Below are positions 4,533-43,381 of a stretch of DNA of 43,381 bases, in pieces (the first letter of the stretch is position 1; the number at the start of each line of letters is the position of its first letter). A model generated the notes under the pieces. It searched no databases and was not told the origin of the DNA. It was given only the letters and a program-made list of their open reading frames with translations. This DNA comes from a virus, in the IMG/VR virus record IMGVR_UViG_3300027851_000052, positions 1 through 43,381 of that record; one strand, 5' to 3'. Both the position numbers and the translations under genes were made by a program.

Positions 4533-4774
4533 ACAGACTCCTTAATAAGTTATTACTTATATCGAGGCTACCTTGCAGCAGCCTCTAATAAACAAGAACT
4601 TAATCTAACTCTTTACTGCGCGTCCTTCTTGAAGTTCTCGTACGACATATTTACTCCTACTGATTACGAATAACTGAGCGGCCCCCCCTAGCTCTCACCT
4701 GAGCCGCTTTTCACCGTCAGATTTTCACCGATTTTCACCCCGCGCACCCGATAAAAAGGTGCGCAAAAGGTGCT
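4533..4774. other. Intergenic region after the tailspike gene
   Basis: Apart from the 11-codon frame annotated separately, I see no gene. Near the tailspike end there are repeats of TTTTCACCG (about 4718-4740) and two inverted repeats: GCGCACC/GGTGCGC (about 4742-4764) and AGCGGC/GCCGCT (about 4678-4710), the second followed by TTTT on the plus strand. These may act in ending transcripts. The GC-rich, GTAC-poor composition of the distal tailspike continues to about 4680 and then stops, which marks the likely edge of the exchanged segment. Confidence 0.45.
4613..4648 (-). CDS. Possible 11-residue mini-gene
   Basis: The frame MSYENFKKDAQ is preceded by a good ribosome site (AGGAG, seven bases before the ATG) in an otherwise empty gap. 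It could be a short translated peptide or the surviving start of a gene cut off when the tailspike segment was exchanged. Nothing indicates a function. Confidence 0.25.
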   Translation of the reverse strand: MSYENFKKDAQ

Positions 4775-6814
4775 CTATGCAGACGCCACCCAGTTGGCTG
4801 AAACCGACCCCCCGTTGGTCACACTGAAAAGTAAGATGTGACAACCGGCATCCGTGAGATTCTCGACTGCGTGCCCTACAATGCCGCCACCGGACACGGG
4901 GGTGACAATCACGCTCGGGGCCAGCCCCCCAAAATCAGCCGTGAAAGAAACGGCGATGATCGCCGCGTAGAGGCTACCGTATGCTGCGGACGCCGTCCCG
5001 CTGACAGTCCCCTTTTCGGCTGTCGGGCGCACCTGACGAAGCCCTGTAACCGTTGACAGGCCGCTGAACATGTCATCTATGCCTCGGTGCTGCTGGTCGA
5101 AGAGGAGCACGTTTGCGATGTCGGCGTTGAAGACGATGCCCCTCTCTGTGGTCCCAACGCCCAAGAAGGTGTTTGGTCCCAAGGTGAGATTGTTGATTTT
5201 GGTCAGGTTAATTCCTATGCCGTTGGTCGAGCCGACCTTGAAGGTGTTGCCTGAAATCAAGCAGGTGTCGATATATTTCCAGCTTTGACCCCGGCTTCCG
5301 AACGTGATACAGATGGGTGCGCCCGTGGGGTCTGCCCCCGAAAACTGGTTGTCGGTAATATTGAGGAAAGAAAACGTAGGCTTGTTGACTTCGTCCGCTT
5401 CTGTGTTGAACGCCAGCCCGGCGACGATAAAGTTCTCGAAAGAGTTTCCGTCGATGATGAGGATGGAAGTATTGCCGGGGGTAATGTCCGTCCCGGTCCA
5501 CGCATAGTCGCCGTTGAAATGCACAGCACCAGCCAGGAATTTGTTTCCGGTGAGTTTCAGCCCGCCCGAGTTAACCTGACTTATGTGTACAGTTCCCGTC
5601 TCTGCGCCTGCGTCAAAAGTGCATCCCGTGATGTTGTGATCACCGGCGTCATTCTCAATCGTGTTCTCAATCCGAACGCCGACAGAGATAATGCTTGCAA
5701 AATAACAGTTGTCGATTTTGAGGCTGACCCCGGTCTTTGAGGATATAGCAGTGTGCGCCTTTGAGAACGTAATCCGCTCGATTGTGGTGTGTTGATTGAC
5801 CAGGGCACTTTCTAGCAGGATGTACGCACCACCCGTCTGCGTGCCAGAGCTGTCCATGATAAAGTCTTCGATGACCACCGCGTTGCTTGTCGTGATGGTG
5901 ATTTTATTGGTCGAAAGGTTATTTGTGCGGAGAAAAGTCCTTCGCCCTGCACCGCGAAGGGTCACGGGCCTGTCGATGGTCAATGCGCTGTAAAGGTAGA
6001 CGCCAGCCGGAAAATTAACAACACCACCCCACTGCGCACTGACAGAGTTGATCGCCGCCTGTATCGCTGCTGTGACATCGAGACTCGCCGTCCCAGCCTT
6101 CACGTCGGCGATCTGTGCAGCCGTCATAAAGTCGAAAACGCTGACCGTTTCTCGCCCCTTGTCTTGTAGGGTGCGCTCAACCGCACCCGTCCCGTCTTGC
6201 AGGAACCCAACGAGCGCAGAGCCGCCACTTCCTTCAATAGCGTCCAGCCTGTCTTTCACGGACCCGCTACCGTAACCAACGAGGTCAGCCCCATCTGAAG
6301 TACCAAGAGTAACAAGTGCTTGTACATCTGCGCTGAATTCTCTTAGTTTCTCAAAAGTTACTACTGAAGTTGGATTAGTACTATCAGCCTTAACACCAAT
6401 AATATTGAATCCATGCATATCAATATCTGTGTAGATATTAGCAAGCCCGAACCCATCAAGCACTTCCTGCAAAGCCATCATGAGTTGCAAGTGGCTTTCG
6501 TCCAAAGAGGGATAGTCAAGAATACTGCCATTACTATACAGGTGCATCAGTAAGTCTTTTGGGATCACTCTACGAAACACAATAGACTCACCTACTCCAG
6601 GTACTGCCCCGCCAATCTGCACCATACCGGTATCGCCGGGCAAGAAAGTAAGTTCCCTGTAAATAGGATTCCCAATACCGTCTTCCTCACTGTTCACCTG
6701 ACACGTCACAAACGCTGGGCGTAAATACCCAAGGGTGAAGTTCACGGAGTACGTATCAGTGATTCCATCCCCTTTATACTCGATGTAACTATACCCTGTT
6801 CTTACTTCACTCAT
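4775..6814 (-). CDS. Tailspike: T7-type adaptor plus beta-helix depolymerase-like domain
   Basis: A 679-residue receptor-binding protein. Residues 1 to about 170 form the conserved virion-attachment part (start MSEVRTGYSYIEYKGDG, then FTLGYLRPAFVTCQV), as in T7 gp17 relatives. After a linker, residues about 215-600 have the look of a pectate-lyase-type right-handed beta-helix: a fold-leading stretch (ETVSVFDF) followed by many N/G/T-rich turns such as GNSFENF and GNTFKVG. Such spikes usually bind or cut surface polysaccharide; no catalytic residues can be assigned. DNA for the distal part (about 4680-6290) is GC-rich and nearly lacks GTAC, whereas the adaptor part is like the rest of the genome. 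This indicates domain exchange. A UNCG-loop hairpin and AAGGAG precede the start. Confidence 0.88.
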   Translation of the reverse strand: MSEVRTGYSYIEYKGDGITDTYSVNFTLGYLRPAFVTCQVNSEEDGIGNPIYRELTFLPGDTGMVQIGGAVPGVGESIVFRRVIPKDLLMHLYSNGSILDYPSLDESHLQLMMALQEVLDGFGLANIYTDIDMHGFNIIGVKADSTNPTSVVTFEKLREFSADVQALVTLGTSDGADLVGYGSGSVKDRLDAIEGSGGSALVGFLQDGTGAVERTLQDKGRETVSVFDFMTAAQIADVKAGTASLDVTAAIQAAINSVSAQWGGVVNFPAGVYLYSALTIDRPVTLRGAGRRTFLRTNNLSTNKITITTSNAVVIEDFIMDSSGTQTGGAYILLESALVNQHTTIERITFSKAHTAISSKTGVSLKIDNCYFASIISVGVRIENTIENDAGDHNITGCTFDAGAETGTVHISQVNSGGLKLTGNKFLAGAVHFNGDYAWTGTDITPGNTSILIIDGNSFENFIVAGLAFNTEADEVNKPTFSFLNITDNQFSGADPTGAPICITFGSRGQSWKYIDTCLISGNTFKVGSTNGIGINLTKINNLTLGPNTFLGVGTTERGIVFNADIANVLLFDQQHRGIDDMFSGLSTVTGLRQVRPTAEKGTVSGTASAAYGSLYAAIIAVSFTADFGGLAPSVIVTPVSGGGIVGHAVENLTDAGCHILLFSVTNGGSVSANWVASA

Positions 6815-6827
6815 ACAAGCTCCTTGT

Positions 6828-6845
6828 GGGGAGGCGGACCTCCCC
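6828..6845 (-). promoter_or_regulatory. UNCG-loop hairpin before the tailspike ribosome site
   Basis: On the minus strand GGGGAGG pairs with CCTCCCC around the tetraloop TCCG. The stem lies just upstream of the AAGGAG of the tailspike gene. There is no T tract, so it is not a clear terminator. It may protect the mRNA end or mark a processing site. Confidence 0.55.
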
Positions 6846-6865
6846 GTTAAGTTTTATCCTTAAAG

Positions 6866-7127
6866 CTAGGCTAAGCCAGCGTCAAACCAAATTGAAAGGC
6901 CCATACAGTCATCGCCGTTAGTGCCTAAGACTTTGCCGCTAATGTTAGGAACATCTATAGTAACCACAAACCTTTGCCAAGTGGTCGTTAGTGCCAACTT
7001 TCTCGTCCCACTTGGCAAGTTACATAACTACGCTTCAGTTCCCCAAGGGTGAATTGCAAAGGGAACACATTAGTTACCCGTCACCTTCAAAGATATACGT
7101 GCTAAAACCAGTGCGTATAGGTTCCAT
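6866..7127 (-). pseudogene. Remnant of a former tail fibre gene
   Basis: After a good site (AAGGAG) an ATG opens MEPIRTGFSTYIFEGDG and then stops. A shift of one base at about 7077 continues with VTNVFPLQFTLGELKRSYV and TCQVGRE. Together these parallel the start of the intact tailspike (MSEVRTGYSYIEYKGDG, then FTLGYLRPAFVTCQV). After a further break, another frame reads WQRFVVTIDVPNISGKVLG, TNGDDCMGLSIWFDAGLA and a stop at 6866, the style of a C-terminal carbohydrate-binding domain of tail fibres. So the two ends of an older fibre gene survive, with the middle deleted and frames broken. An 11-bp inverted repeat (6974-6984/7008-7018) sits at the junction. Confidence 0.75.
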
Positions 7128-7138
7128 TACATCTCCTT

Positions 7139-7162
7139 AGAGGGTACATTACTGCACCCTCT
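7139..7162 (-). promoter_or_regulatory. Hairpin before the fibre remnant
   Basis: AGAGGGT (7139-7145) pairs with ACCCTCT (7156-7162) around a 10-base loop. On the minus strand it directly precedes the ribosome site of the fibre remnant and follows the promoter-like motif near 7200, so it would lie in the 5' leader of the tail fibre transcript. Confidence 0.5.
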
Positions 7163-7192
7163 GTACTAGTTATTCTTATTAATCTTTCTACA

Positions 7193-7208
7193 CAAGTACG
7201 GGTTCATG
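7193..7208 (-). promoter_or_regulatory. Candidate phage promoter D (tail fibre/lysis block)
   Basis: The minus strand reads CATGAACCCGTACTTG. It matches the motif found near 17.6, 21.5 and 38.8 kb (TATAAACMCGTACTAG), and shares flanking GTGTAGA with the copy before the capsid gene. It lies between the large internal virion gene and the fibre genes. It is the most divergent of the four. Confidence 0.5.
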
Positions 7209-7224
7209 TACTAATCGACGTGTA

Positions 7225-10200
7225 CTAATCTGTGTTCACGAATTGTTCAAATAGCATACCCGTACCATACATTCGTCCAAATACAGGAATCACATGCAAA
7301 GCACGTTTGTCTTGCCTGTCGAACTCCATTCCAGGCAGCATACTTGCTATAGCTCCAGGCAAGTGCAAAGCATCCTGTGCTACACCAAGCATCGGGAGAC
7401 TAATTTCACCAGCATATCGACCACCCGGGGCTATCTCATCAATCCCCAGAATCGTAGCCGTCAAGTCGATACCAGTTGCCGCCCACGACAACGAGTTATT
7501 CAATGCAAAGGATCGCTTAGCTAATGTCTCAACATCCAGTTCTTGTCCTTCGACTGTAGCACGCACCATACTCGCAATACAGGCAGTTCCCATACCGTAC
7601 GCAATCAGAGCCTGCGCTGACCCGTCACCTCTAGCGAATGTACGTAAGAACTGCTTACGCATTGCCAGAAGCGGGAAGGATTGAAGATGTCCGAATATTG
7701 CTGTACTAGGAGCATGTAACCACTGCATACTTTCGCCAGGTAACGCCCTCTGTGTCATCGTGTAAGATACACGCAGTAATGCTCGTCCGTAGTCTTCTCG
7801 CAACTCGGGATTCCAGCGTTCAGGATTCATTCTATCTACATGCCCGAACTCATTGAACTCTATCGTCCCAGAATCCACCAACTTCTTTAATGCCCTGTAC
7901 GTCTCAGTATCAATACCTGCCGTACGTAACAGCGCGGATATGTCTGAACCATCCTTGATACTTCTGAATATCTTGTCAGTTACACTCAATGCGCCTAATC
8001 TTAACTGCCCTTCAAGAACGCGCGTGTATCCGGACAGTACACTCTGTACATGCTGGCCCTTAGCAAGCAAGTCATCAATAGTTCTCGTAACACTAGGCGC
8101 TGCTGTTACCATATCAAGTGCAGCGTCAGCAACCATGTCTGAACGCATCAATCCCTTTTCGTATCCCAGATTACCTACGCACCAGCCTAAATCTTCGCTG
8201 ACCTGTCGGATGTTTATTCCACCCAGGTCTTTGAACAAACTACGCATTAACTCTGAACTAGCTATGAAACTTTTGAATCCGGCAGTCGCAAGGATACCAG
8301 CAGTCTCTGCTACCTGAGTTAAACCAAGTTTAGACAACAAACTAAGGTTCGTCATCTGCTTAGCTCTGCGCATCCAAGGATTTATATGCTTGTTTACAGA
8401 CCCGGCCTCGAAGTACTCAAAGACATACGTCAGGAATCGCTTGTATGCCTCCATGTCCTCTTTAGGTATTACCTTTCCGGATTCTTCAGCAGCTTGTTGA
8501 ATCTCGTCAAGAACCTGATTCTTGATAGTCTCCATCTTGCTCTTGTTATCAATACCGTGTCTAGTCAACGCAATACGCTTAGACATACTGTCGTTGTACT
8601 GGAACATCACCTTGTTCAAGTCCTGCTCAACAAGATCAATAATCCGAATCCCCTCGTACTCACCAGCGAGATCAATGTCTGTTCTGCGCCTAGCGTAAGC
8701 TATTTTGCCTTTATCTCCCTCAGCAACAGTTAAACGGTTCAACACAGCGTCTGCTTGATCATCAGTCAAACCGTTCAACTTCATACTCTCTTTCAAGAAG
8801 GCTTTACCATCATCAGAAAGCAAGTACCCGAGGTTCATATCCATCCCAGCAGACTTCGTTAATTGTCTGTTCATCAATGCACCTGCTATTGTCCAGGCAA
8901 CGTCAGGATCAATGTCAGGTAAAGCCCGTTGGTACGCTTGGGATAATGCAGACTGTAAACGCTCTCGGCCAATCTTCCCTTTGCCAAGTTTAACGATTGC
9001 CGCTTGCATAGCCTCACCTGACCATACCAACGGGATATGCGCAGCTTGAGGCTTGATGTCAGCAAAACCGGGAACAACTCTAGCTCCTGCTTTCCCACCT
9101 TGAGCTTCATACAATATGTAATCAGCATTCCGCTTAATGGCATCAAGCATGAGCTTAGCATCGGGTTCTGGAGACACAGTTCTACCAAGTCTCATCTCAT
9201 TCGCGTATTCCATTACTCTGCGATTCAGGTCACGCTCGTACTGCGCCCTCTGTCTCCAATCTGCTAACGTGAACCCTCGCGATTTCCAACCATCAGCTAT
9301 AATAGCATCGCGTTCAGCAGCGAATCGTTTATAACCTTTATTAATAATATCCTCAGCTATAATAGCCCCAGACTTATTATTAATAACGAACCCCTCTGCA
9401 CTCTCGAATAGACTCACCGCCAATGCACGTGCAGTAGCAGAACCTGACTCCCATAGACGAGTGAAGTCATCAGCGAACGGCCCTTTCTTAAGCGCATCCC
9501 TGGCACTCTTTAACCACCCGCTCTGCAATGCTGAACTTGTCTTTACTTTATCTACAAGAGCCTGTGCCCTTGTTTTCATATTCCCCAGATCGAGTTCACC
9601 ACCGAACACACCGTCACCAGTGTACTCATTTAACACATCATCTATGGAGTTATCCAATCTACGTGTGAATTCAGGATCACGTACATGGTCCAAGAAAGCC
9701 TTAGCAGCGTTACCAGTTGGAAGCTCACGTGTGCTCAAACCAACAGGCAAACCAGCACTGGCGCGAATAGCTCCACCGAAAGCACCAGCCATGAGTATTC
9801 CCGCCGGGACATCAGACCATTGCGCAGTATCTCCAGTTGCAGCTAACAAAGGCTCAGTAACTAGCGCAGATTTTGTACCTAACTTAACCCCTTCCCAAAT
9901 ACTAGCAGCCTTAGATACATCTTCTGCACCTTCGGCTACAGTACCTAGTTTAGCTACATCTGCACCCTTCACTGCTAAGGCAGTACTAGCCACCTTCCTA
10001 GCACTAGCGGCTTTACCTAAGAATGGAAGTACAGCATCTACGTCAACAACAGAGGACAGTAACATAGCCGTTACGCCAGATACACCATTCTCACCAAGAA
10101 CTCGGAGATCGTCCAATTCCTTCTGGATACCTGCATGAATATCCCATGCTTCCGCTAAAGATTCTGCACGACTGAACTTTTCATGGTAAATGCTAGGGAT

Positions 10201-10512
10201 ACCTTGTGTAAGTTCAGTCCAGTGCGCTTTAACATCGAAGCCTTCTTCCGGTTCAAAGGAACTCTTACGTACCGTGTAATCAAACACACTCCGCAAAGCA
10301 TTCACAGTTCTAAAACCACGAGCTACTAGACTCGTGATGTCTTCTTCTTGTAACGCTTTTGTTTCAGTGTACAACTCCTCTTCACCAGTTCTTCCAGCCC
10401 CTAGGGATTGTGCAGGAGCTTGAAAGGGAGCCGCCGGAACAGACGGCTCCTTAGAACTAGTGAATACATCAGTTATTTGAGTTAATGTACTCCTCAGGTC
10501 TAATGTATCCAT
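7225..10512 (-). CDS. Internal virion protein, gp16-like ejection protein
   Basis: This 1095-residue protein is the third gene of the internal-core set downstream of the tail tubular genes, the position of T7 gp16. Such proteins leave the capsid at infection and form the channel carrying DNA across the envelope. Small-residue-rich hydrophobic segments (near residue 160, VTAMLLSSVVDVDAVLPFLG, and near 240, AGILMAGAFGGAI) could insert in membranes. I see no transglycosylase motif at the N-terminus, unlike T7 gp16. The ATG was chosen because AAGGA lies six bases before it; an in-frame TTG two codons earlier is less likely. Confidence 0.8.
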   Translation of the reverse strand: MDTLDLRSTLTQITDVFTSSKEPSVPAAPFQAPAQSLGAGRTGEEELYTETKALQEEDITSLVARGFRTVNALRSVFDYTVRKSSFEPEEGFDVKAHWTELTQGIPSIYHEKFSRAESLAEAWDIHAGIQKELDDLRVLGENGVSGVTAMLLSSVVDVDAVLPFLGKAASARKVASTALAVKGADVAKLGTVAEGAEDVSKAASIWEGVKLGTKSALVTEPLLAATGDTAQWSDVPAGILMAGAFGGAIRASAGLPVGLSTRELPTGNAAKAFLDHVRDPEFTRRLDNSIDDVLNEYTGDGVFGGELDLGNMKTRAQALVDKVKTSSALQSGWLKSARDALKKGPFADDFTRLWESGSATARALAVSLFESAEGFVINNKSGAIIAEDIINKGYKRFAAERDAIIADGWKSRGFTLADWRQRAQYERDLNRRVMEYANEMRLGRTVSPEPDAKLMLDAIKRNADYILYEAQGGKAGARVVPGFADIKPQAAHIPLVWSGEAMQAAIVKLGKGKIGRERLQSALSQAYQRALPDIDPDVAWTIAGALMNRQLTKSAGMDMNLGYLLSDDGKAFLKESMKLNGLTDDQADAVLNRLTVAEGDKGKIAYARRRTDIDLAGEYEGIRIIDLVEQDLNKVMFQYNDSMSKRIALTRHGIDNKSKMETIKNQVLDEIQQAAEESGKVIPKEDMEAYKRFLTYVFEYFEAGSVNKHINPWMRRAKQMTNLSLLSKLGLTQVAETAGILATAGFKSFIASSELMRSLFKDLGGINIRQVSEDLGWCVGNLGYEKGLMRSDMVADAALDMVTAAPSVTRTIDDLLAKGQHVQSVLSGYTRVLEGQLRLGALSVTDKIFRSIKDGSDISALLRTAGIDTETYRALKKLVDSGTIEFNEFGHVDRMNPERWNPELREDYGRALLRVSYTMTQRALPGESMQWLHAPSTAIFGHLQSFPLLAMRKQFLRTFARGDGSAQALIAYGMGTACIASMVRATVEGQELDVETLAKRSFALNNSLSWAATGIDLTATILGIDEIAPGGRYAGEISLPMLGVAQDALHLPGAIASMLPGMEFDRQDKRALHVIPVFGRMYGTGMLFEQFVNTD

Positions 10513-10521
10513 GTTCAATCC

Positions 10522-17583: not shown

Positions 17584-17618
17584 CTACACTAGTACGGGTT
17601 TATAGCACTAGTAACTAT
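17584..17618 (-). promoter_or_regulatory. Candidate phage promoter C (capsid)
   Basis: The minus strand carries TATAAACCCGTACTAG (17604-17589), preceded by AGTTACTAGTGC. About 30 bases around it match the copy downstream of the RNA polymerase gene with few changes. It lies in the gap between scaffold and capsid, where T7 has its strong phi10 promoter. The spacing of conserved blocks does not look like a sigma70 promoter. Confidence 0.7.
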
Positions 17619-21471: not shown

Positions 21472-21508
21472 CTCTAACTTAGTACGTGTTTATAGCACAA
21501 GTAACTAT
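21472..21508 (-). promoter_or_regulatory. Candidate phage promoter B (structural genes)
   Basis: The minus strand carries TATAAACACGTACTAA, preceded by AGTTACTTGTGC. It is the closest match to the copy before the capsid gene. It lies immediately after the RNA polymerase stop, in a position to drive the late block from the small acidic gene onward. Confidence 0.7.
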
Positions 21509-40693: not shown

Positions 40694-40779
40694 AATTTGC
40701 CCTCCAATGCTTGAACGCCGTACCATAGGAGCATGAACACAGGACTAGCCGAGACGATGATCCATGCGAGTGTTTTCAT
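40690..40779 (-). CDS. 29-residue membrane peptide
   Basis: A very short gene, MKTLAWIIVSASPVFMLLWY and on to LEGKL, with one membrane-spanning stretch (residues about 4-23). Its ATG overlaps the stop of the upstream gene by four bases, and its stop overlaps the next ATG by four bases. This precise fit on both sides is the main evidence. No strong ribosome site precedes it, so it should be translated by coupling. Phages often make such early membrane peptides to change host envelope functions. Confidence 0.6.
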   Translation of the reverse strand: MKTLAWIIVSASPVFMLLWYGVQALEGKL

Positions 40780-41195
40780 GCCGCCACCCACGCCTGCCCC
40801 TTGAAGTACGTGTAAGCCTCAGGTCTGTTTGGTCCATCGAATTCGACAGGAAACAAGTCTCTGCCTATGCGCTCAGGAGCACGAAAGGGTTGCGGGAAAT
40901 ACTGCATGTAGTACAAGTACACTCCGGAATCATCACGAAGCAGGACGCACTCCTGATCGTAGTACACACCAAGGCCGAGGATAGTCTTGATTGCAGACGC
41001 ATCCTGCACGACGACTACGAACGAGTGTTCAGACTCCCCCTGATAAAAGCCCAAGGCAGGACTGAATCGAATCTTGCCCTGTCTGGCGAGTACGTCAAGG
41101 TCATCCTGTAGCATCTTCTGACGGACGAAATTGGCCGCAACTCCCCTATCGGAACGAGCGGCACTGATAATCATAACAGTTTCACGAGTGCGCAT
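40776..41195 (-). CDS. Early protein, weakly DUF3293-like
   Basis: A 139-residue protein. The pattern TVMIISAARSDRGVAANF, then LGFYQGESEHSFVVV and LGLGVYYDQECVLL, recalls the DUF3293 family of unknown function, though the match is by eye. Early position suggests a role in host takeover. AGGAGG lies seven bases before the chosen ATG. Confidence 0.6.
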   Translation of the reverse strand: MRTRETVMIISAARSDRGVAANFVRQKMLQDDLDVLARQGKIRFSPALGFYQGESEHSFVVVVQDASAIKTILGLGVYYDQECVLLRDDSGVYLYYMQYFPQPFRAPERIGRDLFPVEFDGPNRPEAYTYFKGQAWVAA

Positions 41196-41196
41196 G

Positions 41197-41487
41197 TTAG
41201 ACCTCCTGACTTTCTTCAAGTTTATCCCACATGTACGACATTAGCATAGCAACGAATACTAGCACGAGTCCGGCAATGCCGAGCCCCTTAGCGAACGTCG
41301 CTGCATCATCGTAAAAAGGATACATGAACCAAACGAGCCAAAGCCAGCCCGATGCTTGCAATGCTACTCCGAGCATGCGCTGAACGCGCTTCGCTCGCCG
41401 CTGGCCGAGCCTAACTTCATCGCGCCAGCCCTGATCGACGGGCGCGGCTTCCCTATAAATTCGACGGTTTTTTCGTGTCCTTTGCAT
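41197..41487 (-). CDS. Early two-helix membrane protein
   Basis: A 96-residue protein with a strongly basic start (QRTRKNRRIYR and RRAKRVQR) and two membrane helices (SGWLWLVWFMYPFY and GLGIAGLVLVFVAMLMSYM). The tail is acidic. Positive charge at the N-terminus suggests it faces the cytoplasm. Function is unknown; small early membrane proteins can block superinfection or host processes. GGAGG lies five bases before the ATG. Confidence 0.65.
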   Translation of the reverse strand: MQRTRKNRRIYREAAPVDQGWRDEVRLGQRRAKRVQRMLGVALQASGWLWLVWFMYPFYDDAATFAKGLGIAGLVLVFVAMLMSYMWDKLEESQEV

Positions 41488-41521
41488 AGTGTCCTCCATG
41501 CTTTATAGTTAATCGAACCAC

Positions 41522-41553
41522 AAAAGGCCGGATACGATTATGCATCCGGCCTT
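41522..41553 (-). terminator. Early intrinsic terminator
   Basis: A perfect 10-bp stem (AAGGCCGGAT/ATCCGGCCTT) with a 10-base loop is followed on the minus strand by TTTTG. It lies just after the first early gene and separates it from the rest of the early operon. Confidence 0.75.
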
Positions 41554-41569
41554 CAAGGTAGGGTTAACT

Positions 41570-42169
41570 TTATTTCCGACCAGCCTCGAACACTTCTGAA
41601 CCAAGTTCCTTTACGATCAAAGACGTGATACTGTTCAATAGACGCTTTTCGTCTGCGGTTAACAGGGCATTTTCAGCATTATCAAGACGTTTAATTGCTT
41701 GGATGATGACATTGAACTTCACGGGCGGAGTTATTTTCTCCGGCTTCGCAATATCCCACCATGCTTTTTCTTCGCATTCCATTACCCATGCCTTGGACAC
41801 GAGTACCTTGTCCTTGTACGTTGTCTTTTCTTCACCCTTGAATTGCGTAGCATGGAACTTTACCTCTGTCCTACCGTCATCATGCTTTTTGATAGAGTAA
41901 CCGATCATCCCTTTGAAAGTTTTATCCTGACCACCAATTTTCAGGACAGCCTCGATTAAAGGCATTACTTGCATATTCTTAGTTTCATGTACTGCCTTTG
42001 CAAGCAAGTTCAATCCAGACAAGTTCCTATGCTCCGTTCCTGCTAATGCGACAGCTTGTTTCCATGCGCTGGCCCAATACATGTTCGCGGAGTTCTGGTG
42101 CTTAACAGCCTGGGAAATGACAACCTTTAAACTGCTCAAATTGTACTGCTTTTCAATCTGCTTTTCCAT
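41570..42169 (-). CDS. First early protein, unknown function
   Basis: A 199-residue protein of helical and mixed character (SLKVVISQAVKHQNSANMYW), with a central strand-rich part (GRTEVKFHATQFKG) and a helical end. I do not recognise it. It is the first gene to be read after entry and has its own terminator, so it probably acts on the host at once, in a role comparable to early T7 proteins but not homologous as far as I can see. A GAGG site lies about six bases before the chosen ATG. Confidence 0.7.
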   Translation of the reverse strand: MEKQIEKQYNLSSLKVVISQAVKHQNSANMYWASAWKQAVALAGTEHRNLSGLNLLAKAVHETKNMQVMPLIEAVLKIGGQDKTFKGMIGYSIKKHDDGRTEVKFHATQFKGEEKTTYKDKVLVSKAWVMECEEKAWWDIAKPEKITPPVKFNVIIQAIKRLDNAENALLTADEKRLLNSITSLIVKELGSEVFEAGRK

Positions 42170-43076: not shown

Positions 43077-43381
43077 TAGGTTCCCTGGCATGTTCAGATA
43101 TTTGTACTGTCTATGGCAGTAGTTCAATTATTTGTACTTATTGGTACTGGCCTGTTCTTACCTGTTCTTACCTGTTCTTACCTGTTCTTACCTGTTCTTA
43201 CCTGTTCTTACCTGTTCTTACCTATTCTTACCTGTTCTTACCTATTCTTACCTGTTCTTACCTATTCTTACCTGTTCTTACCTGTTCTTACCTATTCTTA
43301 CCTGTTCTTACCTATTCTTACCTATTCTTACCTATTCTTACCTATTCTTACCTATTCTTACCTATTCTTACCTATTCTTAC
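43077..43381. repeat. Right copy of the terminal repeat (with 10-bp array)
   Basis: Bases 43077-43156 equal 1-80. After this come 22 full units of CTTACCTRTT and a partial unit. The variable base runs GGGGGG A G A G A GG A G then seven A, unlike the left copy. The contig ends inside the array, so the array may be longer in the virion. Confidence 0.85.

Follow-up and report, generated by a model that had tools for sequence, protein, structure and literature searches.

Swapping host-recognition proteins is a well-known habit of phages. In T7-like phages fibre and spike modules are exchanged horizontally at the fibre locus, and an anchor of about 140 residues is conserved (PMC6872550, PMC7693777). 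Of such exchanges of receptor-binding genes usually the outcome alone is seen, whereas at the locus described here one can still read the displaced gene, the promoter-like element that belongs to it and, with a border exact to the base, the incoming leader. The locus resembles the module exchange at gene 17 of T7 and K1F in its position, in a conserved T7-type N-terminal anchor and in a different distal receptor-binding part (PMC6872550, PMC7693777). It differs from it in that a fragment of the displaced gene, together with the leader of that gene, can still be seen, and in that the incoming unit appears to be a leader with a whole gene and not a distal module alone. A second group of comparable systems carries dual receptor-binding proteins, as in K1-5, KP32 group A and G7C, with a truncated first protein for example in phage 2044-307w (PMC6872550). 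These genomes likewise contain two fibre or spike gene starts, one of them truncated; however, both of their proteins are produced, or failing that an anchor carrying a docking domain, whereas the remnant studied here is frameshifted and unable to make an anchor protein. The locus is thus a further instance of the known fibre/spike exchange, set apart by the surviving remains of the displaced gene and by its base-exact borders. It would offer a concrete picture of whole-fibre replacement, in which a non-homologous join at the boundary of gp16 and fibre lets the resident promoter be reused and is followed by decay of the old gene.

The genome and its relatives

The window, that is the whole stretch of DNA analysed, is the virus contig IMGVR_UViG_3300027851_000052 of 43,381 bases. 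We consider the genome near complete because a terminal direct repeat is found at the contig ends (1-127 = 43077-43203). At either end the repeat passes into tandem repeats of 10 bp that are variable (1-222 and 43077-43381, arrays of the unit TTCTTACCTA/TTCTTACCTG), resembling the short repeats beside the terminal redundancies of T7. The gene set is T7-like and comprises a single-subunit RNA polymerase, head-tail connector, capsid, tail proteins, internal virion proteins, fibre, and small and large terminase, the identified genes all lying on the minus strand. An identical contig from another sample (L002) ends at 7525, near the fibre locus.

Gene order is colinear with IMG/VR contig 3300040971_000006 (L007, G002), with protein identities of 37-90%. 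This contig and two further related phages, L006 and the partial L008, come from one metagenome, 3300040971. Identity to L007 varies gene by gene on both sides of the fibre locus without a sharp step, which led us to reject a simple mosaic genome whose relatedness changes abruptly at the fibre. In the early region (40772-41575) the DNA is 86-89% identical to L007, compared with about 65-80% elsewhere, and includes an exact shared run of 61 bp at 41041-40981; this stretch represents either a strongly conserved gene or a recent exchange between the two lineages. L006 and L007 have a near-identical leader and anchor start with different distal fibre parts, and L008 is distally different too, so that fibre exchange seems active among the phages of this metagenome.

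A fibre-gene remnant between gp16 and the tailspike

The remnant occupies the position of T7 gene 17 on the minus strand, and its sequence was confirmed to the base. About 250 bases long (7127-6874), it encodes the opening ~40 codons of a fibre anchor of T7 type, followed by ~43 residues of a distal domain (Table 1). A one-base frameshift splits the anchor into pieces 1 and 2, and the anchor joins the distal-domain piece at about 7009-7003, which marks the junction of an internal deletion. Translation of the third frame from 7018 to 6866 gives MPSGTRKLALTTTWQRFVVTIDVPNISGKVLGTNGDDCMGLSIWFDAGLA and then a stop. Its last residues, LA*, already belong to the adjoining 62-bp block, and the fibre-derived part stops at about 6875/6874. 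With three frames, stops, an internal deletion and a lost C-terminus the reading frame is destroyed. A perfect 11-bp inverted repeat (7018-7008/6984-6974) has its arms in the anchor and distal-domain pieces and brackets the deletion junction; the repeat may have promoted the deletion or may be due to chance.

Table 1. Features of the fibre locus in the window.
Feature	Position	Strand	Evidence or remark
gp16-like internal virion protein, gene upstream of the fibre locus	7225..10518	-	phrog_342, internal virion protein with endolysin domain, E=5.7e-107
Promoter-like element (phage's own type) ahead of the remnant	7185..7213	-	core AACCCGTACTNGTGTAGAAA also present at 17609, ahead of the capsid gene
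Leader A hairpin, 10-bp stem, then RBS AAGGAG of the old fibre gene	7139..7162	-	RNA fold of 7126-7226, z=-2.8
Remnant piece 1, old fibre anchor start, ATG-initiated MEPIRTGFSTYIFEGDG, then TAA	7077..7127	-	preceded by TAAGGAGATGTA
Remnant piece 2, next frame, VTNVFPLQFTLGELKRSYVTCQV, anchor continued	7009..7077	-	18/26 identical to L007 fibre
Remnant piece 3, third frame, interior segment of distal carbohydrate-binding-like domain	6875..7009	-	phrog_4492, phrog_25042, RHph_TM40
Leader B, block of 62 bp that includes a hairpin (6845-6828), an RBS and the spike ATG	6812..6873	-	62/62 match in L006 and L007
Present tailspike, T7-type anchor and pectate-lyase-like body	4775..6814	-	PF03906 E=2.6e-10, PF12708 E=1.9e-7

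We compared the three frames with fibre proteins. Piece 1 scored 47 against the N-terminus of the L007 fibre and 46 against the present spike, piece 2 scored 96 and 70, and in neither case did any of 5000 permutations score as well. The remnant anchor is nearer to the L006/L007 fibre anchors than the anchor of the present spike is, and piece 2 is clearly closer to L007 than to the present spike. A Pfam search of the joined pieces gave no match, with just ~40 anchor residues remaining for PF03906; the anchors of the present spike and L007, to which the remnant aligns, are themselves T7-type. Piece 3 matched the PHROG tail-fibre families phrog_4492 (E=3.4e-10) and phrog_25042 (E=2.6e-8) as well as the tail fibre of Rhizobium phage RHph_TM40 (53% over 43 aa, tblastn 5e-11). 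The matches fall at profile positions 917-957 of 1096 and 439-483 of 632, placing the piece in the interior. Since full-length homologues run well past the point where the remnant stops, the C-terminus of the old fibre is missing. Both families contain the distal domain matched by piece 3; phrog_25042, a single profile that spans the T7-type anchor as well, matches just two places in the genome, the spike N-terminus and the remnant (6875-7009), the latter as a fragment lacking an open frame.

Because all three pieces resemble tail-fibre proteins beyond chance, derivation from a fibre gene is supported. An earlier note, made from the sequence, had drawn a parallel between the start of the remnant and the spike N-terminus across a one-base shift, and had assigned the remnant to a different tail-fibre gene; both proposals agree with the permutation scores and with the profile covering anchor and remnant domain. 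Its description of the end as the C-terminal carbohydrate-binding part of another fibre, so that the two ends of the older copy had been kept, was right as to the anchor and as to a tail-fibre domain absent from the spike, but the distal-domain piece comes from the interior of that domain and not from the C-terminus. The searches that it had suggested, of the three minus-strand frames and of related phages, returned tail-fibre similarity by PHROG and tblastn, and nearest relatives with a single fibre and no remnant at this place, so that the remnant is no conserved functional element.

The old gene had a different architecture, and its distal-domain piece was absent from the present spike and from L006/L007. 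As this piece is unmatched in the spike, we rejected a duplication of the present spike as the source of the remnant. No intact copy of the old fibre was found elsewhere in the near-complete genome, nor a T7-like phage with an intact relative of both halves. The remnant was also absent from L006, L007 and the other Autographiviridae loci checked, a comparison that includes few close relatives. An exact scan for the remnant sequence and one of genome contigs for the junction were empty, and DNA similarity searches of the region against phage records gave no match. Inspection by eye of the three frames downstream of the spike (4533-4774) revealed no recognisable C-terminus of the old fibre. This gap holds a tiny ORF, MSYENFKKDAQ, with a good RBS and several hairpins, where L007 has an ORF of ~106 aa, and is possibly another gene remnant.

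We also considered that the segment is not a passive relic but regulates the spike, be it as a functional leader, as a short ORF or as an RNA element. A good RBS does precede a 17-codon ORF, and none of 60 mononucleotide shuffles contained an inverted repeat as long as the one across the junction. Yet the sequence is in no relative, a separate leader and RBS serve the spike, folding of the whole remnant is unremarkable (z=-1.8), and protein similarity spread over three frames is the trace expected of a decayed gene. A regulatory role is therefore hardly credible.

Two gp16-fibre leaders in tandem

Upstream the feature reaches to about 7213 and includes a promoter-like element, a hairpin and an RBS, here called leader A. 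The promoter-like element lies at what we take to be the position of the T7 phi17 promoter. Weaker kin of its motif are found at 21499, 38821 and 455, all on the minus strand, and the L007 contig contained no close matches. The sites around TGCTATAAACACGTACTAG-GTAG, at about 453, 7211, 17607, 21497 and 38819 on the minus strand, are probably promoters of the phage's own RNA polymerase. Because its promoter-like element matches this phage's own type, leader A looks resident. Most Autographiviridae relatives checked also have a hairpin between gp16 and fibre.

Leader B starts exactly at the broken end of the remnant (6874). In L006 and L007 it begins with the gp16 stop codon, which forms its first three bases, and ends with the fibre ATG; a single fibre follows it directly, without a remnant in between. 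The window thus holds two complete gp16-fibre leaders in tandem. No exact match that the window shares with the L007 contig is longer than leader B. Among 2.9 million viral contigs its core occurs, besides the window, in L006 and L007 only. Since the block is single copy in all three and was found in no other viral contig, we rejected a repeated phage promoter. The complete identity and the start at the relatives' gp16 stop, set against flanking coding DNA that is about 70% identical between the window and L007, make leader B look imported.

The spike itself gave Pfam matches that both exceed the curated cut-off. Directly behind leader B, its anchor is only ~57% (aa) identical to L006/L007, which is within the range of other genes, and it is not unusually close to any sampled donor; import of the leader is favoured by its own identity over the background. 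The anchor value counts against the replacement proposed below: either the donor was not L006 or L007, or the leader moved separately, or the leader is extremely constrained. An unsampled member of the L006/L007 group as donor is one option that would account for an identical leader with a non-identical anchor. It is also conceivable, although rather unlikely, that leader B, at the boundary of gp16 and fibre, is a conserved joint for recombination or a leader under extreme constraint, and allows whole fibre genes to move between divergent phages as leader-plus-gene cassettes. The remnant would then be a trapped intermediate of cassette addition, as opposed to an ordinary homologous swap within the fibre gene.

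Order of events at the locus

We consider it likely that the remnant is a pseudogene fragment of a former tail-fibre gene, onto which a foreign leader and spike were joined non-homologously and which decayed afterwards. In a mixed infection the 3' part of the resident fibre gene would have been fused to the leader of another phage's spike gene, the join falling at the gp16 stop codon of the donor. The product would have carried in tandem a promoter, the truncated old fibre, the foreign leader and the new spike. With its job taken over, the truncated fibre would have lost most of its middle part and gained the frameshift, while the resident promoter may have been kept as it could still drive the spike through the remnant.

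The same arrangement could have arisen in reverse, with leader B and the spike being ancestral and a second fibre gene with leader A entering between gp16 and leader B, where it may have served for some time as an additional fibre before it decayed. In the nearest relatives gp16 is followed at once by leader B; the break coincides exactly with the gp16 stop boundary, a site at which inserted DNA would spare both genes; and the anchor identity to L006/L007 is unexceptional. Vertical descent would, however, require that a 62-bp non-coding block stayed unchanged while the TerL DNA differs by ~30%; moreover the resident-type promoter-like element sits in leader A, and right at the border the 3' end of the old gene is missing. 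We regard this order as doubtful.

An assembly chimera, formed from two co-occurring phages that differ in their fibres, is unlikely. A single metagenomic contig spans the junction, the identical contig L002 stops near the locus, and fibre loci are often polymorphic within a population. A chimera would nevertheless leave unaccounted for both the internal deletion and frameshift within one gene and the border exactly at the leader, and gp16 and spike are intact, the remaining genome being colinear with the relative.

The earlier note had left open whether two fibre genes were carried at once or one was swapped, and had proposed a host-range change. A swap, as in the replacement of a resident fibre by a foreign leader and spike, fits best. 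A change of host range resulting from it is plausible. A change of receptor would be likely, because a fibre with a carbohydrate-binding-like distal domain would have been replaced by a spike of the pectate-lyase type.
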